44,446 nt of DNA, from positions 1 to 44,446 of the forward strand of contig DAOVAN010000003.1 of the NCBI GenBank assembly GCA_030671005.1, given 5' to 3'. A program made the position numbers and the translations under genes. Shown here in pieces: positions 1,393 through 20,418 of the stretch (the stretch's first letter is position 1; each line of letters opens with the position of its first letter). The notes below the pieces were generated by a model. The model searched no databases. It was given only the letters and a program-made list of their open reading frames with translations, and was not told where the DNA came from. The DNA comes from Caldifarciminota bacterium. GTDB lineage: Bacteria; Hydrothermota; Tepidihabitantia; SM23-42.

Positions 1393-1437
1393 CGTACTCC
1401 CTTCTTTGTTACCGATGCAGGGTTACCTGCACCGGTG

Positions 1438-2547: not shown

Positions 2548-2560
2548 ATACTTCCTCCTT

Positions 2561-3793: not shown

Positions 3794-3811
3794 CATATCC
3801 TCCTTAATGCC

Positions 3812-4102
3812 TCATAAACCTTTCTTAGCTTTTAAAATAATCTGTCCACTATAACTCAAATCAATAACCAACGTTTCCTCAATTCCCAGCAAATTCAATT
3901 TCTGTAGCAAATGCTTCTTCTTCTTCAGGTCATTGGTGCCCAAAACATATCGAACACCCTTGTATTCAACAATTCCATCCTCCCTAGATACTACTTCTCC
4001 ATCAGGTATCACCTCATCCAAAACTACATACTCGTCACGTTCTCGCAGAAGCCCAAACATGAAGACCACGCCAACTATGATCAGCAATAGCACAACAATC
4101 AT
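3812..4102 (-). CDS. Minimal FtsQ/DivIB-like membrane protein
   Basis: A 96-aa protein in the exact slot normally held by ftsQ, between murB (4-bp ATGA overlap) and ftsA. One N-terminal membrane segment (about residues 2-17) is followed by a ~75-residue soluble part. The soluble part carries GVRYVLGTNDL and ends in VIDLSYSGQIILK, which resembles the last strands of the FtsQ beta domain (typically ...IDLRYPGQVIV). The POTRA domain and the first half of the beta domain appear absent; typical FtsQ is 220-280 aa. The open reading frame is clean and well embedded, so this is more likely a reduced FtsQ than a pseudogene. Its role in recruiting FtsB/L-type partners is inferred from position and the weak C-terminal match. 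Confidence 0.6.
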   Translation of the reverse strand: MIVVLLLIIVGVVFMFGLLRERDEYVVLDEVIPDGEVVSREDGIVEYKGVRYVLGTNDLKKKKHLLQKLNLLGIEETLVIDLSYSGQIILKAKKGL

Positions 4103-4983
4103 CTTAATAGTTGCACCTCCTCCTCAAGTATTATCCCGGTTTCTCGACGAACGATTTTCTTTACTTCTTTGGCCAAAACAATAACATCGGCCGCGCGTGC
4201 TTGACCGCGATTCATTATGTAGTTCGCATGTTTCCTGCTGACTTCGGCGTCACCCACTGATGTCCCCTTAAGTCCGCACTGCTCGATCAACTCACCCGCT
4301 GCATAACCTGGCGGATTCTTGAAGAACGAACCAGCAGAATAACCAGTGGGATGTTTTATCTGCCGGCTCTTCGTGTTTCTCCTAATTCTCGCCAAAATAA
4401 CCCTGTGCTTTTCTTTTCTCAATACAAGCTTCACCGATGTGACAATTTCTCCATCCCTGAGTTTCGAACGCCGGTATGCAAATCCCAATTTGTCCTTGAC
4501 TCGTAGCCCTTCAACTCCATGCCTGTCGATAATGGTGGCGCTTTCAATAATATCAGAAATCGAATTCCCAAAAGCACCTGCATTGCCCTTCATTGCGCCA
4601 CCCATGGTACCAGGTATACCGGCCATGAATTCTGCGCCCCCATAACCTTTTCTAATTGCCGCATCCAGAAAATCGCGAATCAATACACCACCACCACAGC
4701 GAAACAGGCTGTCGTGATGGGTAATTCTCTTGAACACTCCGCCCAACTTCAGCACGACGCCTCTAAAACCCTTATCAACAACCAGCAGGTTTGTACCCGC
4801 GCCAACCAGGAAGTATTTCATATCCTGTTTCTTGATGATCCCGAGCACACTCTTCAATGCCTTTACCGAGCAGACATAAACAAAATAGTTCGCAGGCCCA
4901 CCAATATGGAATGATGTATGATCAGCCAGTCTTTCGTTCAACACTACTCTGATGTTTTTTGTGCGGCCGAACGGATTCCTCAT
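4099..4983 (-). CDS. murB: UDP-N-acetylenolpyruvoylglucosamine reductase
   Basis: Flavoenzyme that reduces UDP-GlcNAc-enolpyruvate to UDP-MurNAc. The N-terminal part contains LADHTSFHIGGPA and VGAGTNLLV. The FAD-binding middle has FMAGIPGTMGGAMKGNAGAFG, and the C-terminal domain has the GYSAGSFFKNP motif with the catalytic serine plus HANYIMN. At 294 aa it fits the short type II MurB class. The start follows AAGGAGCTGAG. It overlaps murC by 4 bp (ATGA) and the ftsQ-like gene by 4 bp, so translation is likely coupled. Confidence 0.96.
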   Translation of the reverse strand: MRNPFGRTKNIRVVLNERLADHTSFHIGGPANYFVYVCSVKALKSVLGIIKKQDMKYFLVGAGTNLLVVDKGFRGVVLKLGGVFKRITHHDSLFRCGGGVLIRDFLDAAIRKGYGGAEFMAGIPGTMGGAMKGNAGAFGNSISDIIESATIIDRHGVEGLRVKDKLGFAYRRSKLRDGEIVTSVKLVLRKEKHRVILARIRRNTKSRQIKHPTGYSAGSFFKNPPGYAAGELIEQCGLKGTSVGDAEVSRKHANYIMNRGQARAADVIVLAKEVKKIVRRETGIILEEEVQLLR

Positions 4984-6365
4984 CTCAGCTCCTTGAGTAG
5001 TCTCTGCGCAACCTTATTTATGTCACCTGCACCCTGGATAATAACGATGTCGCCGGGCTTCAGTGTTCGCTTCAGAAATCTCAAGATATTTGTGAACTTA
5101 CCCATGAAATGAACCGCATCTTGCTCTTTGGCAATCCGTTTTGCCAATGCACGACCTGTCACACCCGGTATCGGCATCTCGTGGGCAGCGTAGATCTCGG
5201 TCACGATCACCGTATCGGCATTAAGGAAGGCAATCGCGAACTGGTCAAACAAGTGGTAGGTGCGTGTGAATCGATGAGGTTGAAAGACCGACACGATCCG
5301 CTGGTTCGGAAAGTAATCACGCAGCGTCTGCAAGGTAATGGCTATCTCGGTTGGATGGTGGCCGTAATCATCAAAAACCCGTATGCCCTTTGCATCACCG
5401 ATATACTCAATGCGACGATGAACACCTCGAAAATTCTCCAGAGCAGATCTTATCTTCTTAGTCGGAATACCCAATTCCATACCAACACCTATTGCGGCCA
5501 GGGCGTTGGCAACATTATGAACGCCCGGTAGATTGATTCTGAATCTGCCTACGAGCCGCTTGTGCGATCTCACTTTGAACGAAACACCGAAATCATATTT
5601 CTCCATGCCTTCGGCCCTCAGATCCGCATCGGTCTCAAAGCCGTACACGATCACCCGCCGGCGGATATTCGGCCTCACATCTCTAGTCACGGCAGAATCC
5701 ACACCCAAGAATACACACCCCCAGAACGGGACGTGATTTGCATAGTGGCCAAAATGCTCTTTTATTTCGTCGAGATCTTCATAATAGTCGAGGTGTTCGG
5801 CTTCTATGTTGGTGATCACTGCATAGGATGGAAACACGCGCAAGAAAGACTTGTCAGACTCATCTACTTCACACACCAGATAATCTCCGGTACCCAGACT
5901 CGCCTGGCTCTTCCCAATGGCAATACCACCGATTACCGTGGTTGGTGATAAACCACCATGCTGTAACACATCGCTGACGATCGAAGTGGTTGTGGTTTTA
6001 CCGTGAGTGCCCGATATGCAAATCGCAAATTTCATACGGGTCAATTCAGCGAGCAACTCGGCACGGTGTATCAAAGGAACACCCATACGCTTGGACTCAA
6101 TCAACTCGGAGTTGCCTTCCCTGATCGCCGAAGAATAGACAACCACGTCGGCACCTTTCGCGTTCTCCTTCTTGTGCCCGTACTTGACCTGGATACCCAT
6201 GCGCTTCAGGCGACGCGTTATTTCTGAAGACTGCAAATCAGAACCGGAAACTCTGAATCCCAGGTTCTTCATGATCGTCGCAAGTCCGCTCATGCCAATC
6301 CCGCCGATACCCACGAAGTGAATATGTTCAGTCTTGCCGAATATTCCTGATTTATATCTTCTCAT
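4980..6365 (-). CDS. murC: UDP-N-acetylmuramate-L-alanine ligase
   Basis: First Mur ligase; adds L-Ala to UDP-MurNAc using ATP in the cytoplasm. The N-terminal HFVGIGGIGMSGLA UDP-binding loop, the central ATP-binding SGTHGKTTTTS P-loop and the NIEAEHLDYY motif identify the ligase, and the DDYGHHPTEI motif (about residue 340) is diagnostic for MurC. Length of 461 aa is normal. The start overlaps the end of murG by 14 bp; the upstream AGGATG is a weak ribosome site, so coupling to murG is likely. Confidence 0.97.
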   Translation of the reverse strand: MRRYKSGIFGKTEHIHFVGIGGIGMSGLATIMKNLGFRVSGSDLQSSEITRRLKRMGIQVKYGHKKENAKGADVVVYSSAIREGNSELIESKRMGVPLIHRAELLAELTRMKFAICISGTHGKTTTTSIVSDVLQHGGLSPTTVIGGIAIGKSQASLGTGDYLVCEVDESDKSFLRVFPSYAVITNIEAEHLDYYEDLDEIKEHFGHYANHVPFWGCVFLGVDSAVTRDVRPNIRRRVIVYGFETDADLRAEGMEKYDFGVSFKVRSHKRLVGRFRINLPGVHNVANALAAIGVGMELGIPTKKIRSALENFRGVHRRIEYIGDAKGIRVFDDYGHHPTEIAITLQTLRDYFPNQRIVSVFQPHRFTRTYHLFDQFAIAFLNADTVIVTEIYAAHEMPIPGVTGRALAKRIAKEQDAVHFMGKFTNILRFLKRTLKPGDIVIIQGAGDINKVAQRLLKELR

Positions 6366-7434
6366 GCTTCACATCCTGTACCAAGCAATCGGCAATTCTC
6401 TGTTCAGCATCTCTGATTGTTGTTGCCCGCATCATTCCTTTTCTTTTCAAGAGCCCACGCACCAGCTCGGCCAGTGTGTCAGCCGTGAGATCCTTCTCCT
6501 CATGCACCACGGCGTCACCGATTCGGGAAAAAAATACCGCATTGTGGTATTGATGAGCATCGAGCGCATATGGAAAGGGGATGAATATCACCTTCTTGTT
6601 CAAAGACAAAATTTCATACCCGGCAAGAGCACCCGCCCGTGAAACGATGACGTCTGCCTCACTGATGTCCTGCCAGGGTTTTTCGATAAATGGCAAGACG
6701 CGGGTGTTTTTACCCCTTCTTGGCACAACCCGCTCATAATCACGGTTACCAGTGATCAATGTGAGACGCCACTTCTTTGGCATCATCTCCTGTAATTCCA
6801 GTGCAAGGTCATTCAGACGCTGAGCTCCTTGACTACCGCCATAGAAAAGAACCGTGACCGTACTCAGCTTATATCGTTTCTGGGTTCGTACCGATTCTCT
6901 GAATTCCTGCCTGACCGGAATGCCCGTTATCATGGTGTTACCCTTCAGTCTGTTTACCGGGGGTAAACCCAAGAAGACCCTCTTCGCCGAAGAGGCGAAT
7001 AGCTTGGTGGCTCTGCCCGGAATCCGATTTGCTTCAAAGATATAAAATGCGCTGCGATTTATCATACATGAAATCGCCAGGGGTACTGCTCCAAACCCTC
7101 CAAACGCCACACCAATACTATTTCTAGTCAGTCCATTCAGTCTCACTATTGAATAGAGAAGTGACACGATGAAAAAAATCTTTCCGACCATTGATTTTCC
7201 GAAGAAAGGCCGTGACTTAATCGGAAAGGTCTTTATCCCATAGCGATGCGCGACGTCTTCCTCCAAATACCCGGCGCGTGCTAGAAATAACACGTCAAAC
7301 TTCCTTTTCTGTAATTCATGTGCCACAACGACCGCTGGGAAATAGTGACCACCAGTGCCCACGCCGCCAACGACGATTCTGGGCATCGCATCACGATGGG
7401 TGACTACCTTCACTTCCTGGCCACCTGTTTTCAC
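6352..7434 (-). CDS. murG: UDP-GlcNAc:lipid I GlcNAc transferase
   Basis: Peripheral membrane glycosyltransferase making lipid II from lipid I. The GGVGTGGHYFP N-terminal loop, GGSQGAQRLN and the C-terminal donor-site SRAGALAGYEI ... DAHQYHNA are clear. The usual HEQN..PG segment is FEANRIPGRA here. The GTG at 7434 is preceded by AGGAGGATTGT and overlaps the ftsW stop by 4 bp, so it is preferred over the ATG at 7386, although the latter would give the more standard distance to the GGTGGH loop. Length 360 aa. Confidence 0.95.
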   Translation of the reverse strand: MKTGGQEVKVVTHRDAMPRIVVGGVGTGGHYFPAVVVAHELQKRKFDVLFLARAGYLEEDVAHRYGIKTFPIKSRPFFGKSMVGKIFFIVSLLYSIVRLNGLTRNSIGVAFGGFGAVPLAISCMINRSAFYIFEANRIPGRATKLFASSAKRVFLGLPPVNRLKGNTMITGIPVRQEFRESVRTQKRYKLSTVTVLFYGGSQGAQRLNDLALELQEMMPKKWRLTLITGNRDYERVVPRRGKNTRVLPFIEKPWQDISEADVIVSRAGALAGYEILSLNKKVIFIPFPYALDAHQYHNAVFFSRIGDAVVHEEKDLTADTLAELVRGLLKRKGMMRATTIRDAEQRIADCLVQDVKHEKI

Positions 7435-8498
7435 ACAATCCTCCTGCGTGATGCCTGCAGCATAATACCGACTGCAAAGAGGTTAGCAGTAAGCGACCAC
7501 CCACCAAAGGAGATGAAAGGCAGTGGTATTCCGGTAGGCGGGACAAGTCCAATACTGACCCCGACATGAACGAGGAAGATGATGAATATCGACGCATTCA
7601 AACCCAAAACCAACAATCTTGTAAATTCATCATCGAGGGCGCCCGCAATGGACAACCCTCGCAAATAAATCTGCCAATAGAATATGAACACAACGACACA
7701 TCCAATGAATCCCAGCTCCTCTGCGATATGTGCAAAAATGAAGTCATTGTGAATGCCCGGGAGAAACAAAAACTTCTGTAGTCCAGCACCCGGTCCCTTG
7801 CCGAAGAGCCCGCCCGAGCCGATTGCGATCAAAGATTGCTGGACCTGATAGGTCGGTTGTGAAATGAAGTTGGCGATACGATACTGGGCGTGCGGAAAAA
7901 CGCGCACAAAGATGGCAAGTATGACTATGCTGACCGCGCTCGTTGCCAACAAGAGCCTGAACTTCGCACAACCGTAAATCAACATCACAAAGAGCGTTGC
8001 CACACATATTACTGACATCGAGATCGATGGTTGTATGGCAACCAACACGACCATCAAGAAAGAAATCGACAGAATCGTCGCAAGGCCCTTTCGAGTGTTC
8101 GCCGTTTGAGGATGTGAGGCGAAGAAATTAGCAAGAAAAAAGACCAACCATATTCTGACAAACTCAGATACCTGAACACCCACCGATGCAATTACCAAAG
8201 ATCTTTTCGCCCCAAATTGAAAACGCCCCGTAACAATCGTGAGCACAAGACTCAAGACTATGAGCACTAACAGCGGTAATATCATCTTTCTGATCTTTTC
8301 ATAAGGAACCATCAAGCCAAGTAGAAAAAAGCCAATCGCAACCAATACGCGCTTCAAGTGTGCAGTCAGATAATAGGTTGAATCCTCACCTTGATGCATG
8401 GCGCGGTAATATGATGATGAGAAAACAAAAATGACCCCCAGGATGACGAGACCAATCATCAGGAATAGCATTACGCGATCAATCTTTCCGTGCGGCAT
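7431..8498 (-). CDS. ftsW: Septal peptidoglycan polymerase FtsW (SEDS family)
   Basis: Integral membrane SEDS glycosyltransferase that polymerises lipid II together with FtsI. Around ten hydrophobic segments are visible, with the GSGGLFGKGPGAGLQKFLFL loop and the C-terminal GIPLPFISFGG motif (GGW where most have GGS). The track ORF begins inside murD; the start at 8498 (MPHGKIDRVML) has GGGGAGG upstream, gives 355 aa, and overlaps murD by 20 bp. SEDS proteins cannot be fully separated into FtsW and RodA by motif alone, but the location beside murD/murG and in an operon with ftsI supports FtsW. Confidence 0.94.
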   Translation of the reverse strand: MPHGKIDRVMLFLMIGLVILGVIFVFSSSYYRAMHQGEDSTYYLTAHLKRVLVAIGFFLLGLMVPYEKIRKMILPLLVLIVLSLVLTIVTGRFQFGAKRSLVIASVGVQVSEFVRIWLVFFLANFFASHPQTANTRKGLATILSISFLMVVLVAIQPSISMSVICVATLFVMLIYGCAKFRLLLATSAVSIVILAIFVRVFPHAQYRIANFISQPTYQVQQSLIAIGSGGLFGKGPGAGLQKFLFLPGIHNDFIFAHIAEELGFIGCVVVFIFYWQIYLRGLSIAGALDDEFTRLLVLGLNASIFIIFLVHVGVSIGLVPPTGIPLPFISFGGWSLTANLFAVGIMLQASRRRIV

Positions 8499-9780
8499 TC
8501 GTGAATGCCTCCCCTCTTTCCTCGAAGTTACCGAAATAGTCAAATGACGCAAACCCCGGGTTGAGCATGATAGTGTCTCCGGGACATGCATAATTTCGTG
8601 CCTTCTTCACCGCATCAACCATGTCCTGAGCAATCGAGTACTGTTCATATCCGTGTGCTTGGAAATGCTCCGTGATGAAACCTGCATTCTCACCGAGTAT
8701 GACACATGCCTTTGCCTCTTTTATTAAAACATCAAAATATGCCTTACCCTCATCTCCCTTGTGCTTGCCCCCCAAGATGACCACCCTCGGTCCTTCGAGT
8801 GCTCGAAATGAGGCAATGGCAGCCGTCGCATTCGTACACATAGAATTATTTATGTATCGTATCCCATGGATGAATCCAAGGTCTTCCAGACGGTGTGATA
8901 GACTGCTAAACGCCTTAATACCTCTTTCAATATCCACGTCGTCGATATTCAAGATCTTAGCCACCGCTATTGCCGCCGCCATATTCATGAGATTATGTTT
9001 GCCCACCAATGGCAAATCTTCGCTTGAGAATAGTTCGCTGTCTTCATAATGGAATTTCCCGTTGATCGATACTCCCTCTGTTGTCCCATAACCAAAGAAA
9101 ACGGGACGTGACTTAATGCCACCCCCTATACTGCGCACCCACTCATCGTCGTAGTTGAGAACCGCAAAATCATCTTCTGTCTGGTTTAAAAAAATTCGCA
9201 ACTTTGCGGTCTTGTACTCATCAAAATTCTTGTGCCAATTCAGATGATCAATGCTCATGTTGGTGAACACGGCAACATACGGACGGAAATTATTGATACG
9301 CATCAACTGAAATGAAGAGACCTCGAGGACGTAGTACTCGCATTTCTCTCCAAAAAGGGCTTGAGAAAACGGTTTTCCAGGCGCAATATTGCCACCGAGG
9401 AAATTCTTGATATGTACCATGTCCAGAATGTTGCTTATCAACGCCGCGGTCGTGCTCTTACCGTTGGTGCCGGTTACCGCAATGGTTCTTGGTCGACCCA
9501 GCTCCCGATATGCAAACTCGATCTCGTCTATTATCGGCACTCCCTTTTCCTCCATGGCCTTGCATATGGCTTTATCGGGCGGAAATCCGGGTGACGTAAC
9601 AACGACGTCATACTGCTCATCATCATGTACCTTCACGTGGCCATCATTGATCAGCTGTTGCGCCGGTTCGGACAAACCCTCCATATTCTCATCGTAGAAG
9701 AATACACCCTCACCTCTCTGCACGAGATATCGTGCAACCGGTAGATTCGCGCGTCCCAAGCCTAGTAATAGAATCTTCAT
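8479..9780 (-). CDS. murD: UDP-N-acetylmuramoylalanine-D-glutamate ligase
   Basis: Second Mur ligase, adding D-Glu. The N-terminal LLLGLGRANLPVARYL loop binds UDP-MurNAc-Ala. AVTGTNGKSTTAALI is the ATP-binding loop, SIDHLNWH is the conserved His region and NNSMCTNATAA matches the MurD NDSKATN motif with a Ser-Met-Cys substitution. The C-terminus has NPGFASFDYFGNFEERG, the standard MurD SPAcaSfDqF..fE.RG block. At 433 aa it is full-length. It lies 4 bp after mraY and overlaps ftsW. Confidence 0.96.
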   Translation of the reverse strand: MKILLLGLGRANLPVARYLVQRGEGVFFYDENMEGLSEPAQQLINDGHVKVHDDEQYDVVVTSPGFPPDKAICKAMEEKGVPIIDEIEFAYRELGRPRTIAVTGTNGKSTTAALISNILDMVHIKNFLGGNIAPGKPFSQALFGEKCEYYVLEVSSFQLMRINNFRPYVAVFTNMSIDHLNWHKNFDEYKTAKLRIFLNQTEDDFAVLNYDDEWVRSIGGGIKSRPVFFGYGTTEGVSINGKFHYEDSELFSSEDLPLVGKHNLMNMAAAIAVAKILNIDDVDIERGIKAFSSLSHRLEDLGFIHGIRYINNSMCTNATAAIASFRALEGPRVVILGGKHKGDEGKAYFDVLIKEAKACVILGENAGFITEHFQAHGYEQYSIAQDMVDAVKKARNYACPGDTIMLNPGFASFDYFGNFEERGEAFTNAARKD

Positions 9781-9784
9781 ATAA

Positions 9785-10870
9785 TCATCTGATCTTCAAT
9801 GTCGACAGGGCAAACATCAGGAAGATGATGCCCACGATCCAGAAGCGCACCACGATTTTCGGCTCGACCAGCCCCTTCAGTTCAAAATGGTGGTGCAACG
9901 GGGCCATCTTGAATAGCCGTTTACCGCCGGTGCAACGAAAATAGATCACCTGGAGCAAAACCGTCAGCACCTCAATCACGAAGACACCGCCAACCAACAA
10001 TAAGAGGATCTCCTGTTTAATGAGAATCGCCGCGGTACCGATGATTGCACCAAGACTCAAGGCCCCGGTGTCACCCATGAACACCTGAGCCGGATGTGCA
10101 TTGAACCACAGAAACCCAAGGCTTGCTCCGAGAATCGCAGCGCAGTATACTGTTACTTCACCCCCCTGCCTAAGAAATATTATGTTCACATACTCGCTTA
10201 TCACTACGTGTCCTGCCGCATAAGCGAGTGCGGCATAGGCAAGGGCGGCGACTCCAATGAGGCCGATGGCGAGACCGTCCAGCCCATCAGTCAGGTTGAC
10301 ACCATTGGAAGAACCGATCACTACCATGACGACGAATATCGGATAGAGCATGCCAAGGCTTATGACATAGTTCTTCACGAAAATGAGGTTGGTCTTGGCA
10401 GCGTAACCCTCAGGTCCAAAAAAATACAAGAACAATCCGAGCGCTAACCCATACATTATTTGAAAAATCAGTTTCGTCTTTATCGATAGACCGCGTGGCT
10501 TTTTCTTGTATATCTTAACATAGTCATCCCAAAAGCCCAGCAATCCGAAATATATCGTCGCCGTGAAGAGTATTAAAACATTCGTGTTACCTAAATCACA
10601 AAAGAGAAAAGATGATATCAGAATGGAGAAAAGTATCAGGATACCGCCCATGGATGGTGTTCCCTCCTTCAAGCGGTGACTATCCGGCACCTCCATCCTG
10701 ACCCGTTGTGTAACCGATTTGTTGGCCAGCAAATTTATGAACCACTTGCCAAGAATGAGCACAATGAGAATCGCGAAGACTGCCGCGTAAGCACTACGGA
10801 ACGTAATATAGCCGAAAAGCCTTAACGGTCCAAAATAGTCCTTCAGTGGATACAAAAGCCAGTATAGCAT
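9785..10870 (-). CDS. mraY: Phospho-N-acetylmuramoyl-pentapeptide transferase
   Basis: Polytopic membrane enzyme that transfers phospho-MurNAc-pentapeptide to undecaprenyl phosphate to give lipid I. The catalytic block NLTDGLDGLA, the FMGDTGALSLG motif and the C-terminal HHHFELKG metal/uracil-binding block are all intact. Length 361 aa is typical. The start at 10870 (MLYWLLYPL) gives the usual N-terminus with a membrane segment. A 51-bp gap separates it from murF, one of the few real gaps in this operon; no convincing promoter is seen in it. Confidence 0.98.
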   Translation of the reverse strand: MLYWLLYPLKDYFGPLRLFGYITFRSAYAAVFAILIVLILGKWFINLLANKSVTQRVRMEVPDSHRLKEGTPSMGGILILFSILISSFLFCDLGNTNVLILFTATIYFGLLGFWDDYVKIYKKKPRGLSIKTKLIFQIMYGLALGLFLYFFGPEGYAAKTNLIFVKNYVISLGMLYPIFVVMVVIGSSNGVNLTDGLDGLAIGLIGVAALAYAALAYAAGHVVISEYVNIIFLRQGGEVTVYCAAILGASLGFLWFNAHPAQVFMGDTGALSLGAIIGTAAILIKQEILLLLVGGVFVIEVLTVLLQVIYFRCTGGKRLFKMAPLHHHFELKGLVEPKIVVRFWIVGIIFLMFALSTLKIR

Positions 10871-10921
10871 ATTATCTCGCCTGTTCTCTTACCGACAAAA
10901 TTGTCTCAATGAAAGATTTCT

Positions 10922-12202
10922 TCACCGCAACAGCCTCGGTAGCTCATCGATGAATCTCTCGAAATGAAGTGCTCTTGACGCTTTGAGCAGAACGACCTCA
11001 TCACCTGCGATGTTTTCACGCAGAAACCTTAGCAAATCTATCGCCTTAGAAAAATGCGTGCCCTTGTAGTATCTCGATTCTTGCCCGAAAGTCACCAGCA
11101 AGTCTGCATGCTGTCTCGCGTATTCGCCAGTGGCCCGGTGCAACTCCTTTGACTTCTCACCCAACTCAAGCATATCGCCAAAGACAAATATCTTCCTCCG
11201 CCCCAACTGTGCAGCAAAGTCGATCGCCGCCTTCATCGACACCGGGTTTGCATTGTATGTGTCATTTATTATCAACAACTCACCCAGTGTAATTGGTTCC
11301 AGACGCCCCGGCTCCGGATTCATCTCGGCGATACCTGCATACTGCGCATCATAATGGATGCTCAGTTTCGAGGTCAAACAGACCGCGGCTAGACAATTGT
11401 ATACGTTACCCAAGCCGAGCAGTTGTGTGAAGAACCGATTTCCTTCATATGAGAAATAGGATCCACGTTCAGTCAGCTCCACACTGTCCAACATTCCTAA
11501 GAAGAAACTGATGGTGTTGCTTCTACCCGACCCGCTAGCTCCCTCGCCAACCAGAGCGAAACCATCAGCGGGGAGTGCATCTATTAAGGCAAATTTCTCC
11601 TTTCGGATACCTTCGATCGAGCCGAGACCATCAAGATGACCAGGACCTATGTTAGTGATCACGCCGATATGAGGGCGTGCAATGTCACACAACCGGACTA
11701 TCTCTCCAGGGGCACTTGTTCCCATCTCCACCACCAAGTAGTCTTCATCCCCGGACAGCCTGAAAACCGTTAGGGGCAGACCGATGAGTGAATTGTAATT
11801 CTTCTCCGTATGTAATACCCGATACTTCTTCTTCAGGATCGACGCAATCAGATTCTTCACCGTTGTCTTCCCGTTCGTCCCGGTAATGCCAACGGTCTGT
11901 ACCTCGAAATGATTCCGATAATTACGGGCGAGTTCGCCCAAGGCAAAAAGCGTATCTGAAACCAATATCTCATTGGTCATCGATTGTGTCCGCTGGACAA
12001 CTGCTGCCAGTGCACCACGCCGCAAGGCATCTGCTACATAGCAATGTCCATCAGTGTGCGACCCCTTCAAGGCAAAGAACAGTTCGCCGGGCATTGTCTC
12101 CCGGGAGCTTATCGTAACCCCACGCACAAGATCCTGCCCGGGCAATTGTGCCTGACCATTCACCATCTTGACTATCTCCCCTAGCATGAACTCGCGAAAC
12201 AT
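10922..12202 (-). CDS. murF: UDP-MurNAc-tripeptide D-alanyl-D-alanine ligase
   Basis: Last Mur ligase; joins D-Ala-D-Ala to the UDP-MurNAc-tripeptide. ITGTNGKTTVKNLI is the ATP loop, GPGHLDGLGS is the central conserved region and NDTYNANPVSMKAA is diagnostic for MurF. Length 426 aa. The start at 12202 is supported by GAGGTGATC, close to the ideal complement of the 16S 3' end, and overlaps murE by 22 bp. No ddl gene is present in this window, so D-Ala-D-Ala ligase must be encoded elsewhere. Confidence 0.96.
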   Translation of the reverse strand: MFREFMLGEIVKMVNGQAQLPGQDLVRGVTISSRETMPGELFFALKGSHTDGHCYVADALRRGALAAVVQRTQSMTNEILVSDTLFALGELARNYRNHFEVQTVGITGTNGKTTVKNLIASILKKKYRVLHTEKNYNSLIGLPLTVFRLSGDEDYLVVEMGTSAPGEIVRLCDIARPHIGVITNIGPGHLDGLGSIEGIRKEKFALIDALPADGFALVGEGASGSGRSNTISFFLGMLDSVELTERGSYFSYEGNRFFTQLLGLGNVYNCLAAVCLTSKLSIHYDAQYAGIAEMNPEPGRLEPITLGELLIINDTYNANPVSMKAAIDFAAQLGRRKIFVFGDMLELGEKSKELHRATGEYARQHADLLVTFGQESRYYKGTHFSKAIDLLRFLRENIAGDEVVLLKASRALHFERFIDELPRLLR

Positions 12203-13605
12203 GCTTTGATCACCTCGGCATCGTTGAACTTGAACCTCTCTTCATTGACTATCTGATACTCCTCATGTCCTTTGCCGGCAACAACAACAATATCCTCTTC
12301 TTTTTTGGAGGCGATGGCATACTGGATCGCGGCAGCACGATCTTCGATTATCTTGTGATTACTACCTACCACGCCCTGCATGATATCATCTATGATCTGT
12401 TTAGGCGGTTCGCTGCGCGGATTATCTGAAGTTATCACTGTCAGATCGGCGAGTCTCGAGGCAATAGCACCCATCTTCGGACGTTTATTCTTATCACGAT
12501 CTCCGCCACAACCGAAGACAATTATCACCCTACCCTTGGCATATTGCTTCATCGATTGGAGGATGTTCTCTATCGCCGATGGTGTGTGAGCGAAATCGAC
12601 AAAGACATTGTCCATGACGCGTTCTAACCGTCCCCGCACCGCATGCAAATCCTCGATACCTTTTATGATGTCTTCTATACGGACACCCAGTGCGACGCCC
12701 GCCGCAAAGGCAGCCAGAACGTTATAAATGTTGAATTCACCAACCAAAGACGTCCTCACCTCATAGCTTTCGTTGTCACAATGAATTTCCAGTTTAGAAC
12801 CATTGAGGGATCCATCGAGTACCCGCGCCATTATGTCACTCTCTCTCGCTACACCAAATGATATCATGTTTGTTATCCGCAGGTCTTTGACCGATCTGCC
12901 AATGTCCTCGTCATTGTTGTACACGGCATACCCGCTTTCCTTGAGCAGTGAAAATATATGCAGCTTCGATTGCTGGTAATCATCCATCGTTTTATGAAAA
13001 TCGAGGTGGTCCTGAGTTAGATTTGTGAAGACGGCAACGTCGAAAACAATATTTTCCACGCGCTTCAGCTTCAGGGCATGTGAAGACACTTCCATCACCA
13101 CTGAATCGATCCCCTCGTTCTCGAAGTTCTTGAACAACTTCATGATATCCAGAATCTCTGGTGTCGTACGGACCGCCTTACTCCTTGCCCCGCCCAGATA
13201 ATAGATTGTTCCTATCAGTCCCGGGCTTCTTCCCGCTCGCGTCAATATCGAGTGAATGAGAAATGCCGTGGTCGTCTTTCCGTTTGTGCCCGTGATACCA
13301 ACCTTAGTCATTCCACCAAAGTCCCCGTAGAACCGTGTGGCCAATATGCCCAATATCTCACGGGTGTTATTGACTATGATCTGAGGTAACGTTGTCTCGA
13401 CCTTCTCCTGGGTAATGACTGCCACGGCTCCTCGTTTTTCCACATCCCGTATGAAATCATGTCCATCGAACCTTTCTCCCTTCATCGCGACATACAATCC
13501 CCCCGGCTTAATCTTTCTTGAATCGAATTCAACCGTAGTAATCTCGACATCCTTAAGGTTATGAGTCTGTGCAGGTATACCTGCAATCAATTTACTTAAC
13601 TGCAT
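12181..13605 (-). CDS. murE: UDP-MurNAc-Ala-D-Glu:meso-diaminopimelate ligase
   Basis: Third Mur ligase. VGITGTNGKTTTAFLI binds ATP, NLTQDHLDFH is the central motif and HTPSAIENIL follows. The substrate-specificity motif TSDNPRSEPP contains DNPR, which by family knowledge marks meso-diaminopimelate rather than lysine as the added residue. That fits a Gram-negative type wall. Length 474 aa; the start overlaps the ftsI stop by 14 bp. Confidence 0.97.
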   Translation of the reverse strand: MQLSKLIAGIPAQTHNLKDVEITTVEFDSRKIKPGGLYVAMKGERFDGHDFIRDVEKRGAVAVITQEKVETTLPQIIVNNTREILGILATRFYGDFGGMTKVGITGTNGKTTTAFLIHSILTRAGRSPGLIGTIYYLGGARSKAVRTTPEILDIMKLFKNFENEGIDSVVMEVSSHALKLKRVENIVFDVAVFTNLTQDHLDFHKTMDDYQQSKLHIFSLLKESGYAVYNNDEDIGRSVKDLRITNMISFGVARESDIMARVLDGSLNGSKLEIHCDNESYEVRTSLVGEFNIYNVLAAFAAGVALGVRIEDIIKGIEDLHAVRGRLERVMDNVFVDFAHTPSAIENILQSMKQYAKGRVIIVFGCGGDRDKNKRPKMGAIASRLADLTVITSDNPRSEPPKQIIDDIMQGVVGSNHKIIEDRAAAIQYAIASKKEEDIVVVAGKGHEEYQIVNEERFKFNDAEVIKACFASSC

Positions 13606-15217
13606 AGCGATGGGAGTTCATTTGATATATGCTATGGGCAATGTCTCTGAATACGGGTGCCGTGATCGTACTTGCCCAGTAACCACTCTTGGGCTCGTCA
13701 ACCATAAGGATTATCAGATAGTCTGGCGAAGCAGCCGGAAAATACCCGGCAAAGGTAGTGATGATAGAGCTGTTTGAGTAGGTACCATCGACAACCTTCT
13801 GTGCGGTTCCTGTCTTGCCCGCGATCTTAATGTCATTGAACGCGGCCGCGGTACCACTCCCCTCCTCGACAACGGTACAGAGTATGTCGGTCACTCGGCG
13901 TGCAGTCGGCGCATTGATTACACGTCTGATCCGTAGTGTCTTAGTTTCGTAAACAACTCTCGGGCCTCTTCGAATTTCGCGTACAATCGTAGGTTTGTTC
14001 AGCACGCCGTCATTAGCGATCGCCTGGTAAGCCATTGCCAGCTGAAGCAGGTTCACCGTGAGACCTTGACCAAAGACAAGAGTGGCAAACTCAACATCAT
14101 TGATCTTCATGCCATCGGGTAATCGACCCCGCACCTCGCCCGGAAATTCAATACCGGTGACTTCTCCGAAACCAAAATCCCGCACCATGAGGAGAAAACG
14201 CTCACGATCGAACTTCCTTGATAACTTGACCATCGCAACATTGCTGGAATGAGCAATCGCCTGTCTCAAGGTGACAATGCCGTAGTCTCTATAATCATTT
14301 ATCAAATGGCCGCGCACTCTTATCTTTCCATCCTCGGTATCGATGATATCGGCTTCTTTTACGCCGTTCTGTAGAGCGTAGGTGAGGGGCATCAATTTGA
14401 AGGTCGATCCGGGTTCGAATTCATCGCAGATTATGTGATTTCTCTGATCACCGTCCTTACCAACATTGACCATGGCAAGGATATCCCCGGTGCCCGGTTC
14501 GATAATCAAACCGCACGCCGACTGCGCGTCTTCGCTCCGGTGACAATCACTTAGGTTTTTGTGAAGAATTGCCTGCAACTGGAGATCGATGGTCAGGTAG
14601 ATATCCCTGCCCGGCCGCGGTTCTTTCTCGGGATGATTATGATACGGAAAAATCCCGCCCGTCGGGTCCTTCTGATATATCGCGAATCCTGTCTCACCGC
14701 TAAGAATGTCATTGAATTGCAACTCCAGGCCTTCGATGCCACGATTATCTGAACCGCATTTGCCAATGAGGCTCGCAAAGATCTCGGGCATGTTATACCG
14801 TCGATTTAAATCATGAGTATATCCAATACTGGGGTCATCAATTGCAAGATATCGGTCACGTTGTCTTTTATCCACCTTCATCTCCACCCAAAAGAATTCA
14901 CGGCTGCCAATCTGCTTCTTGATACGACTCCTCGATTTCCCGGAAACCTTTGCAATCTCACGCGTCAGCCTGCCGACGTCACCGGCATAACGCGGCGTGC
15001 AGAAAACTGAAAAACATTGTTCAGATGTAGCAATGGCCACACCGTTACGATCATATATGTTACCTCTTGCTCCCAGCAGCACAAACTTTTTCTCGTGCTG
15101 CCGCTTGGCTCTATTTTCGTAGTACTGATGTTTGAAGCATTGTATATAAAAAAGGTAGGAAAAGAAAACAACCGAGACAAAAAAGAGGAGAAAATTTAAA
15201 AACTTCGTCCGGATCAT
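13592..15217 (-). CDS. ftsI: Septal penicillin-binding protein FtsI/PBP3 type transpeptidase
   Basis: Class B PBP that crosslinks septal peptidoglycan with FtsW. It has a cytoplasmic stub, one membrane segment (about residues 9-25) and the dimerisation domain with RGNIYDRNG. The transpeptidase domain carries the catalytic S271TFK, the SSN triad near 324 and the AGKTGTAQK box in the C-terminal third. It ends soon after the catalytic domain with no PASTA repeats. Length 541 aa. It overlaps the ftsL-like gene by 4 bp and murE by 14 bp. The position makes FtsI more likely than a sporulation or elongation PBP. Confidence 0.94.
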   Translation of the reverse strand: MIRTKFLNFLLFFVSVVFFSYLFYIQCFKHQYYENRAKRQHEKKFVLLGARGNIYDRNGVAIATSEQCFSVFCTPRYAGDVGRLTREIAKVSGKSRSRIKKQIGSREFFWVEMKVDKRQRDRYLAIDDPSIGYTHDLNRRYNMPEIFASLIGKCGSDNRGIEGLELQFNDILSGETGFAIYQKDPTGGIFPYHNHPEKEPRPGRDIYLTIDLQLQAILHKNLSDCHRSEDAQSACGLIIEPGTGDILAMVNVGKDGDQRNHIICDEFEPGSTFKLMPLTYALQNGVKEADIIDTEDGKIRVRGHLINDYRDYGIVTLRQAIAHSSNVAMVKLSRKFDRERFLLMVRDFGFGEVTGIEFPGEVRGRLPDGMKINDVEFATLVFGQGLTVNLLQLAMAYQAIANDGVLNKPTIVREIRRGPRVVYETKTLRIRRVINAPTARRVTDILCTVVEEGSGTAAAFNDIKIAGKTGTAQKVVDGTYSNSSIITTFAGYFPAASPDYLIILMVDEPKSGYWASTITAPVFRDIAHSIYQMNSHRYAVK

Positions 15218-15465
15218 TCAACCACCCCTAATATGTCATCTCTATCAGGAAAGACATAGCCCATCGCCTTTGCCGCGGTTTCGATATCGGCGAGATTGGC
15301 AAGACCGATCAATTCAAATTCCAATTGTTTCTTCTCGTTTCTCAATGCGACAACACGATTTTTCAAATCTTCCTTACGCACCTCGCTCTTTACCAGTTCG
15401 CTCTCAAGGAGCACGAGCAAGAACAAGTATGCTATAACACCTACAAATATTATGAGCACACGCAT
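15214..15465 (-). CDS. FtsL-like bitopic division protein
   Basis: A small 83-aa protein between rsmH and ftsI, the standard place for ftsL. One N-terminal membrane segment (about residues 3-20) is followed by a charged heptad-like coiled coil (ESELVKSEVRKEDLKNRV). The end is typical of FtsL/FtsB proteins, with ETAAKAMGYVFPD (family pattern IE..A...LGM..P). By analogy it forms a coiled coil with FtsB and activates FtsW-FtsI. Sequence identity in this family is always low, so the call depends on size, topology, the motif at the end and synteny. It overlaps both neighbours. Confidence 0.75.
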   Translation of the reverse strand: MRVLIIFVGVIAYLFLLVLLESELVKSEVRKEDLKNRVVALRNEKKQLEFELIGLANLADIETAAKAMGYVFPDRDDILGVVE

Positions 15466-16337
15466 TTTTCGATAACCCTCAACTTCGCACTCCGCGCGCG
15501 CGGGTTCCTGCTGATCTCGTCTTCATGGGGTTTTATCACTCTCTTGTTGAGCAACTGAATCTGACCCTGTTTTTTCAGCCCGCGGAAGAAGTACTTCACG
15601 ATCCTATCCTCGCCCGAATGATATGATATCACCAGCATTCTGCCCCCGTCCTTGAGCCTTCGATATGCAACAAGCAAGCCCTGCCCCAGATTCACCAGCT
15701 CATCATTCGTCCAGATTCTCAAGGCCTGAAAGATCTTGTGCAGGTTCTTCTTCAGAAACCGCCTCGGCACAGAATCCTCAATCACCTTTCTCAGTTCCAG
15801 GGTTGTGTTGAGTGTACGTCTCATCTCAAAAATCCTATGCCCAATCTTCCTGTAATTGCGCACGTCACCATATTCCCTGAGGATCCGTACAATCTCTTCC
15901 TTCTGCGCCCTACGCAACCTCTCGCCGAGGGTGAGGCTGTTCGGTGACATACGCATCAGTAAATCGCCCTTTCTCTCAAAACTGAAACCGCGGGCCGACG
16001 TCGTGAGTTGGTGATATGAAACACCCAGATCAAAAAGCAAGCCATCAACCCTGTGGACCTTTAGCCCGTCAAGGATTAAATCTAGATTAATGAAGTTATT
16101 TTCGAAGAGAAAACACCGCTTGCGGTAATCAGCCGTCACCTGCCGGCTGTAAGCGATTGCCTCCGGATCACAATCAATACCGACGAACCGGGCCGTTCTC
16201 GTGCGCTTCAACATGACGAGGAGGTGTCCGGCACCGCCCACTGTGCAATCGCAGTACACACCATCGTCCCTCAGGTTAATCCAGGTAACAATTTCATCTA
16301 CCAGAACAGGTTGATGAAAAACCTGCTGCCGTGCCAT
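15450..16337 (-). CDS. rsmH: 16S rRNA (cytosine-1402-N4)-methyltransferase
   Basis: SAM-dependent methyltransferase (formerly MraW) acting on C1402 of 16S rRNA. HQPVLVDEIV at the N-terminus, the DCTVGGAGH SAM loop, LFDLGVSYHQL (family DLGVSS.QL) and the C-terminal ISYHSGEDRIVKYFF block are present. Length 295 aa. An upstream TTG (16340) is possible, but the ATG at 16337 is preferred. It follows the STAS gene instead of following mraZ directly as in most genomes. Confidence 0.97.
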   Translation of the reverse strand: MARQQVFHQPVLVDEIVTWINLRDDGVYCDCTVGGAGHLLVMLKRTRTARFVGIDCDPEAIAYSRQVTADYRKRCFLFENNFINLDLILDGLKVHRVDGLLFDLGVSYHQLTTSARGFSFERKGDLLMRMSPNSLTLGERLRRAQKEEIVRILREYGDVRNYRKIGHRIFEMRRTLNTTLELRKVIEDSVPRRFLKKNLHKIFQALRIWTNDELVNLGQGLLVAYRRLKDGGRMLVISYHSGEDRIVKYFFRGLKKQGQIQLLNKRVIKPHEDEISRNPRARSAKLRVIEKCVCS

Positions 16338-16340
16338 CAA

Positions 16341-16682
16341 CTAGGCAAAGCTCTTCAGTGCGGCTCTACGTGATGGGTAGATCTCAAATGGGTAAAAGCC
16401 GTATAATCTCAGGATATCGTACAAGTACGGTGATACATTTACAAGCTTTATATCACCTCCGTACTTCTTGAATTTTTGTTGGTATTCAATAAGCCAACCA
16501 ACAACTTTGTAGTTAATGTGACTCACCCGTGAAAGGTCTATGATTATGTTGAAATCACCATCTTCAATCATTTGCTTCAACTTCTGCTCTATTTTGGAAA
16601 ACCCCTCCTCATCGATTTCACCACTGGGTAAGAAAAACGATACCTTCTTATCCTTAACAGCCTCAACTGCTTGTATTTTCAT
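16341..16682 (-). CDS. STAS-domain protein (anti-sigma factor antagonist-like) inside the dcw operon
   Basis: A 113-aa single STAS domain. The NIIIDLSRVSHINYKVVGWLIEYQQ segment aligns with the SpoIIAA pattern DlsgVtfiDSSGlgvLl. The phospho-acceptor serine region (DSSG) is NYKV here, so serine phosphorylation at the usual site is not possible. Start is supported by AAGGAGGAAAG. It overlaps the end of mraZ by 20 bp and abuts rsmH, so it is certainly in the operon. No partner kinase or sigma factor is nearby. A structural or scaffolding role is as likely as control of an anti-sigma factor; function unknown. Confidence 0.8.
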   Translation of the reverse strand: MKIQAVEAVKDKKVSFFLPSGEIDEEGFSKIEQKLKQMIEDGDFNIIIDLSRVSHINYKVVGWLIEYQQKFKKYGGDIKLVNVSPYLYDILRLYGFYPFEIYPSRRAALKSFA

Positions 16683-17145
16683 CTTTCCTCCTTCTCAAAC
16701 CTTCGATGCCCTCGGCATCCTCCAAATAGAATTTCTCGACCTCCTTACCAAACGCCTCATAGTTTTCAGGAGACCATAATTCAATGTAGTTGATCTCGCC
16801 AACGATAATGACCTCTTTGGCAATGCGGGCATGAGTGAGTAGGAAATCTGGGATGAGGATTCTTCCTTGTCCATCGAGTCGATCCTCTTTTATGCCGAAC
16901 GTGAAGTGTCGTCGATACCGACGGGACTTGAGATAATCCATGGAAAGAGAAAGCATTTCTTTGTCCTCGATCTCTTCCCAAATTCTCAGCGGGTATACAG
17001 CTACTTCCCGGTCATAACCAGGTGTAAGAATTACCCGGCCTTCAGACTCGTGATTCAGAATGCTGCGGAATTGGCTCGGTACGGCCAGGCGTTTTCGGTC
17101 ATCCAAGATATGAGTGAAGAATCCCCGGAATCTAATGTTCCCCAT
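16663..17145 (-). CDS. mraZ: Division/cell wall cluster transcriptional regulator MraZ
   Basis: AbrB-like DNA-binding protein with two MraZ half-domains: FRGFFTHILDDRKRLAVPSQFR near the N-terminus and RLDGQGRILIPDFLL about residues 88-102. By family knowledge it forms a ring oligomer and represses its own operon by binding TGGGN repeats; three such repeats overlap its start. The ATG at 17145 gives the normal FRG N-terminus (160 aa); the GTG at 17160 would add five residues. It is first gene of the 17-gene operon. Confidence 0.95.
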   Translation of the reverse strand: MGNIRFRGFFTHILDDRKRLAVPSQFRSILNHESEGRVILTPGYDREVAVYPLRIWEEIEDKEMLSLSMDYLKSRRYRRHFTFGIKEDRLDGQGRILIPDFLLTHARIAKEVIIVGEINYIELWSPENYEAFGKEVEKFYLEDAEGIEGLRRRKDENTSS

Positions 17146-17164
17146 TGTTCCCCATTTCACCCCA
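17140..17164 (-). promoter_or_regulatory. MraZ-binding boxes (three TGGGG repeats, 10-bp period)
   Basis: Read on the minus strand, TGGGG occurs at 17164-17160, 17154-17150 and 17144-17140, each separated by exactly 5 nt. This is the known MraZ box architecture. The first box shares a base with the -10 element and the last overlaps the mraZ ATG, so bound MraZ would block both RNA polymerase and initiation. Confidence 0.88.
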
Positions 17165-17191
17165 TTTTACATATTATTTGATATTTGTCAA
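17164..17191 (-). promoter_or_regulatory. Promoter of the division operon
   Basis: A consensus -35 TTGACA (17191-17186), 16-bp spacer and -10 TAAAAT (17169-17164) on the minus strand. The expected start point lies inside the MraZ boxes. The ~190-bp gap between here and the rsmB stop (17192-17378) holds no gene and no clear terminator. Confidence 0.8.
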
Positions 17192-17378
17192 GTACCAAAG
17201 TTGTCAGCTCTTATGGTATAAGTCTTTAAATTTCGAGTGTTTTTGGTGTACCCAGTACTGTACTACAGGGATTACATGGGTTCGTTACAAATTTTGATAG
17301 GGATGTGATGTTCTTATGCTGACTATGCTATTGGACGAGCCTCTTGTCTTTACCCAAACCAGATTGATCAGCGACGAT

Positions 17379-18635
17379 TCATTCGGTCTTCTTGAGCCTT
17401 GCTGCAAAAACACCATCCGTGTTATAATCGCACGGCAGGACTTTCAGAAAGTCATCACCCTGTGGAGTAAAATCATTTGCAGGCTCGACTACGAAATTCG
17501 GATTGCTTTTAAGAAAAAGGGTAATGACATCTTCATTCTCATCTGGCAGAATACTACACGTTGAGTATATCAACGAACCACCGACGCGCAGGTAATGGGC
17601 TGCGTTCGTCAGCAAATCATACTGGAGTTTGGCCAACCTGGTGACCACCTTTTTGTTCACACGATCCTTCACCTCGGGTCTCTTGGCAATAACACCCGCA
17701 TTCGTACAGGGCGCGTCCACCAGCACTTTGTCTACACCTTCGAGTTTGTAGTAACGCCCATCTGCGATAACCGGTCTTATGACACGAATGCCCAATCGAA
17801 CCGCGTTGTCCACCACTAACTTGAGTCGTTCATTACTGATGTCTACCGCAATGACCATGCCTTCATTTTTCATCATCTCGGCCATGTATGTTGCCTTGCT
17901 ACCGGGTGCCGAGCACAGATCGACTATCCTCTCTCCTGGCTTCGGGTCCACCAGATGGCATACCAAACCCTGTGCTTCATCATGGATAGAGATATCCCCT
18001 TGTTTCATCAGCGGACTGTTGATCACCAAGCTCAGATGGTCGACCGACTTGAATTCAGAAAACCAATTTGCCTGCTTATATTCCAAGCCACTCATTCTTA
18101 ATTTCTCTCTTGCTTCCTCAACGGTGTTTTTCAGAAGATTTATGCGTATATACGGTGTGGGGCGAATCTTGAAACATTCGATGATCTTCTCACCTTCTAC
18201 CTGATATGCATCCATGATCTTTCGAAAGACCCATGCGCGTGGTTCACGTAGCACCTGGACACGCTTATTTCGGATAACACCACGTAGCACGGCATTTATC
18301 AAACCCTTCTCCTTCAGGGTCCGACCAAAATTGACCGCTTCGTTGACGATTGCATAAATGGGAATGCGGTCAAAGAATAGATACTGGTATACAGAAATTC
18401 TGAGCACATTCTTCAGCGTCGCATCGAGCGAAAAGAAATCACCGGTCAGAGTCTCCCTGACTATCTGATCTATCTCTTCACGATGACGCAACGTACCAAA
18501 TGCCAGTTCATTAGCCAGTTGCCGATCTTCATCCTTCATTTCATTCTTCTCGTAGATCGCAGCCAGCGCGTCCTTAAGGTTTTTCCCCTCGTCTACTTCA
18601 CACAGTGCACTAATTGCCGCCTCACGCGCAGTCAT
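17379..18635 (-). CDS. rsmB: 16S rRNA (cytosine-967-C5)-methyltransferase
   Basis: SAM-dependent RNA m5C methyltransferase. The N-terminal ~140 residues are the NusB-like RNA-binding domain (REAAISALCEVDEG, ELAFGTLRHREEID). The catalytic domain has VDLCSAPGSKATYMAE for SAM, the DAPCTNAG motif and the YSTCSILPDENED catalytic cysteine motif. Length 418 aa. The start is preceded by AGGAGAGGTG and overlaps the def-fmt stop by 4 bp, so the two are translated together. Confidence 0.95.
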   Translation of the reverse strand: MTAREAAISALCEVDEGKNLKDALAAIYEKNEMKDEDRQLANELAFGTLRHREEIDQIVRETLTGDFFSLDATLKNVLRISVYQYLFFDRIPIYAIVNEAVNFGRTLKEKGLINAVLRGVIRNKRVQVLREPRAWVFRKIMDAYQVEGEKIIECFKIRPTPYIRINLLKNTVEEAREKLRMSGLEYKQANWFSEFKSVDHLSLVINSPLMKQGDISIHDEAQGLVCHLVDPKPGERIVDLCSAPGSKATYMAEMMKNEGMVIAVDISNERLKLVVDNAVRLGIRVIRPVIADGRYYKLEGVDKVLVDAPCTNAGVIAKRPEVKDRVNKKVVTRLAKLQYDLLTNAAHYLRVGGSLIYSTCSILPDENEDVITLFLKSNPNFVVEPANDFTPQGDDFLKVLPCDYNTDGVFAARLKKTE

Positions 18636-20068
18636 CTTAACACCTCTCCTTTCTCTATACGGTAGCCATTGATGAAATCAAGAGCCGAGATGACTTTCCT
18701 GCCCTCTGGCTTGACCTCACGCAACACGAGCGACCTGTTGCCAGCACCGACATACAATTTCTTGTCTTCCACCGCGAGCAATCCCGGTGGCAATTTCCTA
18801 TCCCCGAGTTCTGCCCGTGTTATCATCAACTCTTTCTTACGAAAACACGTTCTCGCGCCAGGTCGTGGAGACAAGGCACGTATCTGATTGTGTATCTTCA
18901 CTGCCTCTCGCTGCCAATCGATGACCAGCTCTTCCTTTTTCAACTTCGGCGCATATGATGCTTTTGCACTCTGCTGCTTCGTCGTTGGACAATTACCCGA
19001 TTCGGCCGCGCGTAGTACAGCGATGATCATACCAGCACCGAGGTTCGCAAGTTTATCGGCCAGCGAACCGAAAGTGTCATCCTTCTCGATCGGAATCTCC
19101 TGCTGGGCGAGCATGTCGCCGTGATCGATCTTTTCATCCATAAAGAAAATCGTAATTCCGGTCTTGTCCTCTCCGTCCATGATGGCTCTTTGAATAGGCG
19201 CCGCACCCCGATAGCGCGGTAACAATGATGGATGAATATTGATTCCGCCGGACCGGGCGACCTGGAGCAATCGTCTACTGAGAATATGCCCATAAGCAGA
19301 AAGCACAAATATGTCAGGCTCCATCTGCGACAACGTCTTGATGAAATCATCACTATTCGGGTCATCAGGCATATACACATTCAATCCCGCGTTCTTTGCC
19401 CACTGTGCTACTCTCGGTAGAGACGTTCGCAGTCCCCTGCCTCTGGGTCTCGGTTTTGATATGACGACACCTAAGATCTCAAACCCCTCGTGGACACACT
19501 GTGCTATTGGTAATGAGAAGTCAGTGCTGCCGAAAAGCAATATCTTCATCAAGCGTTGCGAATCCTGTGCCTTTTCTGCAATATCTTCCACGTACTTCTC
19601 TACTTTCTCTTTTTCCGTATCCGCTGCGTGATCAATAAACAGAACACCATCCAAGTGATCCAATTCATGCATCGCCGCCCGAGCCAGAATCCCGGTTAGG
19701 TCAAGGACAAAACCCTCATTGTACAAACTCTTTGCATAGACACGGACCTTCTCCGGTCGGGCGATTCTCAAATAGAGCTCAGGAAAACTCAAGCATCCTT
19801 CCTCATCTACTACTTCGCCTTCCTTATTAAGCACAACCGGGTTTATGAAAGCCACGGGCTCTGGCTGTTCTTCGCTCGGGGCTGCATTCATAACGAATAT
19901 CCTATACTCTGAACCAATCTGATTCGCCGCGAGGCCAACCCCATCTTCCTGGAGCATGATTTCTATCAATTTGTCGATCAGTTGGAAAATCTCCTCGCCA
20001 ATTTTCTCCACGGGTGCAGTTTTTTTTCTCAAGTTTGACGCCGGGTATTTCAAAACTGCAGTTGACAA
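18632..20068 (-). CDS. def-fmt: Peptide deformylase - methionyl-tRNA formyltransferase fusion
   Basis: One uninterrupted 478-aa ORF with two enzymes. Residues 1 to ~165 are peptide deformylase, with GVGLAANQIG, EGCLSFP and the metal-binding HELDH. From M174 (MKILLFGSTDFSLP) it is methionyl-tRNA formyltransferase, with the NIHPSLLPRYRGAAPIQ folate/catalytic block, the catalytic Asp in MDEKIDHGDML and the C-terminal tRNA-binding domain. The two reactions open and close the formyl-Met cycle. The two domains meet with almost no linker, as if a stop codon had been lost. The start is TTG with GGAG 6 nt before it. An internal ATG (19549) could still give free Fmt but has only a weak ribosome site. 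yajC lies 44 bp upstream. Confidence 0.93.
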   Translation of the reverse strand: MSTAVLKYPASNLRKKTAPVEKIGEEIFQLIDKLIEIMLQEDGVGLAANQIGSEYRIFVMNAAPSEEQPEPVAFINPVVLNKEGEVVDEEGCLSFPELYLRIARPEKVRVYAKSLYNEGFVLDLTGILARAAMHELDHLDGVLFIDHAADTEKEKVEKYVEDIAEKAQDSQRLMKILLFGSTDFSLPIAQCVHEGFEILGVVISKPRPRGRGLRTSLPRVAQWAKNAGLNVYMPDDPNSDDFIKTLSQMEPDIFVLSAYGHILSRRLLQVARSGGINIHPSLLPRYRGAAPIQRAIMDGEDKTGITIFFMDEKIDHGDMLAQQEIPIEKDDTFGSLADKLANLGAGMIIAVLRAAESGNCPTTKQQSAKASYAPKLKKEELVIDWQREAVKIHNQIRALSPRPGARTCFRKKELMITRAELGDRKLPPGLLAVEDKKLYVGAGNRSLVLREVKPEGRKVISALDFINGYRIEKGEVLR

Positions 20069-20112
20069 TTTCTACTCCGTGTTATTAAACTAGGACTACA
20101 AACCCTTTTACC

Positions 20113-20418
20113 TCAACTACCGCTGGGGTTCAATTTATTTGTGATGTGCCCTTTTTCTAATTCAATCTTCACACCATCTGCGATCAAAAGAGTAATGGTG
20201 TGATCTTTGATATTGGTTATCGTGCCATGGATGCCAGATGAGGTCACAACACGATCGCCTTTCTGTAAATCTGCAACCAATTGCTGATGTTTTTTCTGTT
20301 TCCTCTGCTGCGGTAGAATCAAGAGAAAATAGAAAACGACGAAAATAAGAATCAAGGGCAGCAAACCCATGATCGGATTTCCCTGTCCTGAACTCTGGCC
20401 AATTAAGAAAAAAATCAT
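20113..20418 (-). CDS. yajC: Preprotein translocase accessory subunit YajC
   Basis: A 101-aa single-span inner-membrane protein associated with SecDF. The membrane helix (about residues 16-36) is followed by ILPQQRKQKKHQQ, the family hallmark, and then by the small soluble domain with LQKGDRVVTSSGIHGTI. The start is preceded by AAAGGAGCTGACT. First gene of the yajC/def-fmt/rsmB group; secDF is not in this window. Confidence 0.95.
   Translation of the reverse strand: MIFFLIGQSSGQGNPIMGLLPLILIFVVFYFLLILPQQRKQKKHQQLVADLQKGDRVVTSSGIHGTITNIKDHTITLLIADGVKIELEKGHITNKLNPSGS

Follow-up and report, generated by a model that had tools for sequence, protein, structure and literature searches.

Can a bacterium make its peptide deformylase (Def), which takes the formyl group off new proteins, and its methionyl-tRNA formyltransferase (Fmt), which supplies that group, as one polypeptide, and how would two neighbouring genes come to be read as one? 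The question is raised by a single open reading frame on a contig of 44,446 nucleotides (the window, i.e., the whole stretch of DNA that was analysed) from an uncultivated WOR-3/Stahlbacteria MAG, which comprises 1.64 Mb in 188 contigs and is 94.5% complete. The reading that we favour, and hold to be reasonably likely, is that of a recent, species-level gene fusion in which def and fmt were brought into register by one nucleotide.

Two predicted enzymes in one frame

The frame opens with a TTG codon preceded by a GGAG Shine-Dalgarno sequence and runs over 478 codons with no internal stop (Table 1). In Pfam searches the fused protein matched Pep_deformylase (PF01327) over residues 4-153 (150 bits), Formyl_trans_N over 174-351 (134 bits) and Formyl_trans_C over 375-470 (76 bits), and each half exceeded the NCBIfam equivalog cut-off of its own family: 135.9 against 103.95 for the Def half (TIGR00079, pept_deformyl) and 260.7 against 201.5 for the Fmt half (TIGR00460, fmt). 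The Def motifs are complete (GVGLAANQ at 43-50, EEGCLS at 89-94 and HELDH at 134-138, following the patterns GxGxAAxQ, EGCLS and HExDH), as are those of Fmt (INIHPSLLPRYRGAAP at 276-291 and MDEKIDHGDM at 310-319, of the SLLPRYRG and D-x-GDM types), and the top PDB matches of the formyltransferase part are themselves Fmt.

Judged by its profile score above the curated cut-off and by its motifs, the N-terminal half is thus a predicted peptide deformylase; the C-terminal half, with its equivalog score, its N- and C-terminal domains and its motifs, is likewise a predicted Fmt. Each half being a full-length member of a conserved family, the shared frame is not to be taken for a chance one. The profile searches and the reading of motifs bear out the initial annotation, according to which both enzymes lie in one frame with the motifs of each intact, and the internal ATG that it had placed at the junction was located at M174.

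Table 1. Positions in the window of the fused def-fmt frame, its parts and its neighbours.
Feature	Position	Strand	Basis
yajC, next upstream of the fused ORF, conserved neighbour	20113..20418	(-)	locus comparison
Fused def-fmt ORF, TTG start, TGA stop, 478 aa	18632..20068	(-)	ORF call and profile searches
Peptide deformylase domain	19610..20059	(-)	motifs at 19942-19919, 19804-19787 and 19669-19655
Def C-terminal helix, residues 150-170, running into the junction	19559..19621	(-)	AlphaFold model
Interval to which the added base is assigned by comparison with congeners (ORF nt 486-519; final ~18 nt fit best)	19550..19583	(-)	in silico deletion compared with congeners
Internal ATG (M174), at which fmt begins in all congeners	19547..19549	(-)	congener comparison
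Fmt part, residues 174-477 (catalytic and C-terminal domains)	18638..19549	(-)	profile matches
rsmB, next downstream; ATG overlapping the stop of fmt (ATGA)	17379..18635	(-)	locus comparison

In the whole assembly, one match each was obtained for Def and Fmt, and no second copy of either was found, about 5% of the genome being missing. The host assembly (G000), at 1.64 Mb, compares with 2.3-2.7 Mb in six of the seven congeners, which would reflect either a reduced genome or the loss of short contigs.

Genomic context

The order yajC-def-fmt-rsmB-mraZ-STAS-rsmH-ftsL-ftsI is conserved in relatives and, because this flanking operon is conserved, the fusion locus is considered orthologous to theirs and not rearranged. 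A nearly complete dcw (division and cell wall) cluster (window 475-20418, minus strand) has the frame at its upstream end; it extends from yajC over def-fmt, mraZ and mur/fts genes as far as ftsZ and is followed by a thioredoxin-reductase-like gene, the gene names deriving mostly from reading the sequences rather than from profile searches. Between mraZ and rsmH, and overlapping the former, lies a STAS-like ORF of the anti-sigma antagonist type (window 16341-16682, minus strand), which is conserved, with 79-93% identity, in each of the nine relatives with loci extending that far. Within window 17379-20068 (minus strand), a marked contrast in rates is also apparent, rsmB being 88-89% identical to its congeneric counterparts and the adjacent def and fmt only 61-70%.

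One nucleotide between two genes and one

The start codon of def and the ATG of fmt lie 518 nt apart in all seven congeners, a spacing that does not vary despite protein identities of only 61-71%, and 519 nt apart in the host genome. Every congener has a separate def ORF (174-197 codons, counted from stop to stop); in six of them the def stop overlaps the fmt ATG as ATGA, and in the other (G002) def ends four codons earlier. Because of this difference in spacing, the fusion is read as the product of one extra nucleotide near the 3′ end of def. In silico deletions, made one base at a time and followed by comparison of the resulting tail with those of the congeners, placed the extra base within the last ~11 codons of def, the best fits falling in the last ~18 nt. 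In agreement with one added base, the AGG that several congeners carry 12 nt upstream of the ATG sits 13 nt upstream in the host.

A lost stop codon had been named at the outset as something to exclude. Since the spacing differs by one nucleotide, loss of the stop by substitution is ruled out for the genus, and the cause lies instead in a base added to an otherwise constant interval. A programmed frameshift was also discarded, there being no recognisable motif at the junction.

The ordinary def-fmt operon of the congeners and of most bacteria is like the host locus in order, neighbours and coupling, and the residues align end to end; it is shorter by one nucleotide and so encodes two proteins. 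Ancestrally, def and fmt would have been translationally coupled neighbours with overlapping stop and start codons (ATGA); one nucleotide added in the last ~11 def codons would have set both frames in register, and ribosomes would then produce a single Def-Fmt protein. In the shifted frame the former stop, TGA TGA, persists, and the fmt ATG has also been retained; because both still stand, nothing at the junction suggests that the fused state is old, which counts against the fusion reading.

Real mutation or assembly error

No fused frame was found among 60 relatives, nor, among 147 genomes of the phylum (the seven congeners included), any uninterrupted full-length match to the fused protein besides the host, which rules out a clade-wide fusion. 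In four of the genomes that match next best (G017, G025, G117 and G055) def and fmt share one frame, but one or two stops intervene. Long Fmt frames in five genomes were rejected as further fusions, def being separate or not adjacent, and so was a 359-codon Def frame (G057), which owes its length to an N-terminal extension. The fusion is therefore not conserved in the genus (0/7 congeners). The survey across the clade that the initial annotation had called for leaves it in one genome only, and separate genes in all close relatives, which had been named as a warning sign, are what is observed.

Such uniqueness, among eight congeneric and 147 phylum genomes, would also be expected if a spurious base at about 19550-19583, introduced by assembly or sequencing, had joined two coupled genes that are really separate. 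The genus spacing otherwise fixed at 518 nt and the origin of the contig in a single fragmented MAG fit this explanation, and it counts further against a fusion that the indel is the smallest possible and that the species has this one MAG and no second assembly. Against an artefact speaks a frame audit in which 41 contig pieces of the host (359 kb) were compared with 1.6 Mb of one congener (G007): none of 253 homologous genes (82 kaa, ~246 kb of aligned coding sequence) is broken in the host, the candidate breaks of the first audit having proved to be antisense shadow ORFs or the def/fmt junction itself. Among 139 co-directional neighbour pairs that are conserved, of which 85 are tight, def/fmt is the only fused one. 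By our own estimate the indel error rate lies below ~1.2e-5 per base (95% bound, 3/246 kb), a higher one being unlikely, and the absence of errors in ~246 kb therefore brings the chance of an error at the junction well under 1e-3. Moreover, no homopolymer there exceeds 4, and the contig carrying the fusion exceeds the other 40 examined contigs in length. Genuine fusions are likewise rare, so the balance favours a real mutation, not overwhelmingly: on the frame audit, a species-level mutation is likelier than an assembly error, which we regard as unlikely and nonetheless of appreciable weight.

Relation to known Def-Fmt fusions

A def-fmt fusion in one CDS has been published for Exiguobacterium (Mol Biol Evol 2025; PMC12690207); among 5,042 reference genomes it is seen in a single genus only, it restores growth when expressed in an E. 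coli Δdef-fmt strain, and is accompanied by a second complete Def (PMC12690207). The host locus has in common with it an uninterrupted CDS for def and fmt, and differs in that the fused Def is the only Def found in the MAG. Uninterrupted Def-Fmt frames of 463-582 codons (e.g., G477:C20:106066-107406) were found in 27 of the 400 Bacilli genomes sampled, and each of the 27 has another Def gene as well (two Def each). Because of this second Def they fit the published description; they are probably one clade-level trait, that of Exiguobacterium, which suggests that the published trait is widespread in that clade. They share with the host an open frame over Def and Fmt without a stop, but there the fusion is a trait of a clade and comes with a further Def, whereas here it is seen in one genome and no further Def was found.

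Aligned with the fused Bacilli proteins, the host protein reaches 239-260 bits at 33-35% identity; many Bacilli pairs that are not fused score higher, up to 327 bits at 36-40%. Because the host protein is closer to these unfused pairs, its fusion most likely arose independently of the Exiguobacterium/Bacilli fusions, and its distinctive features are most likely this independent origin together with the fact that no second Def was found. The overall reading proposed at first thus holds in part: the single frame is present and such fusions can work (PMC12690207), but the relatives are unfused and the implied novelty of the fusion type yields to an example already in print.

Predicted structure and mode of action

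The AlphaFold model of the fused protein, run on an alignment (A2) of 28 sequences anchored by read-through rows, has a mean pLDDT of 92.5 and two confident domains: a complete Def with a C-terminal helix at 150-170, then the first strand of Fmt at 175-179. Residues from about 161 to 170 are less certain (block mean 67) and, with a pTM of 0.65, the relative placement of the domains is not firm. The near-absence of a linker, asserted from the letters alone, agrees with this model, in which the Def C-terminal helix is joined to Fmt via a few residues.

In E. coli, the C-terminal helix of Def docks near the ribosomal tunnel exit. In the fused protein, Def would keep its usual co-translational action, Fmt being tethered behind this helix, while the Fmt half would formylate free Met-tRNA(fMet). 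We infer from the preserved sequences that both halves are active and, by analogy, such a fusion can serve both functions, given the growth that the Exiguobacterium protein restores.

It could be argued that the frame is real, yet much free Fmt is made from M174 beside the fused form, which would then be a partial or harmless by-product. M174 does match the exact fmt start of the congeners, and an AGGA stands 13 nt upstream of it, several congeners having AGGT at 12 nt. However, its predicted Shine-Dalgarno pairing is the weakest of eight (-4.1 versus -5.0 to -10.7 kcal/mol), the overlapping stop required for reinitiation is lost, and free Def would need a frameshift, for which no slippery motif is evident. 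With pairing weaker than in the seven congeners and the reinitiation stop gone, free Fmt from M174 appears possible but not favoured, and that the fusion is a mere by-product strikes us as very improbable. Under the fusion reading, with the termination-reinitiation signal gone and a weak internal Shine-Dalgarno, little or no free Fmt would be made from M174.

Implications

Altogether, the locus is seen as a single-genome, single-nucleotide event of a known kind that is probably real. With a single MAG and a single base behind it, its value stays limited until it is confirmed. We give an even chance to the fullest reading, namely that the sole deformylase of this organism is obligatorily tied to its sole formyltransferase, one polypeptide having to act both at the ribosome exit and on the pool of free initiator tRNA, by a single-nucleotide insertion independent of Exiguobacterium. 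To our knowledge, no earlier Def-Fmt fusion has been described in which free Def is absent. If real, this case would be a second, independent origin of the Def-Fmt fusion; it would mean that a coupled ATGA gene pair can turn into a fusion in one step, and that an Fmt tethered to the C-terminal, ribosome-facing helix of Def is compatible with the deformylation of a whole proteome.
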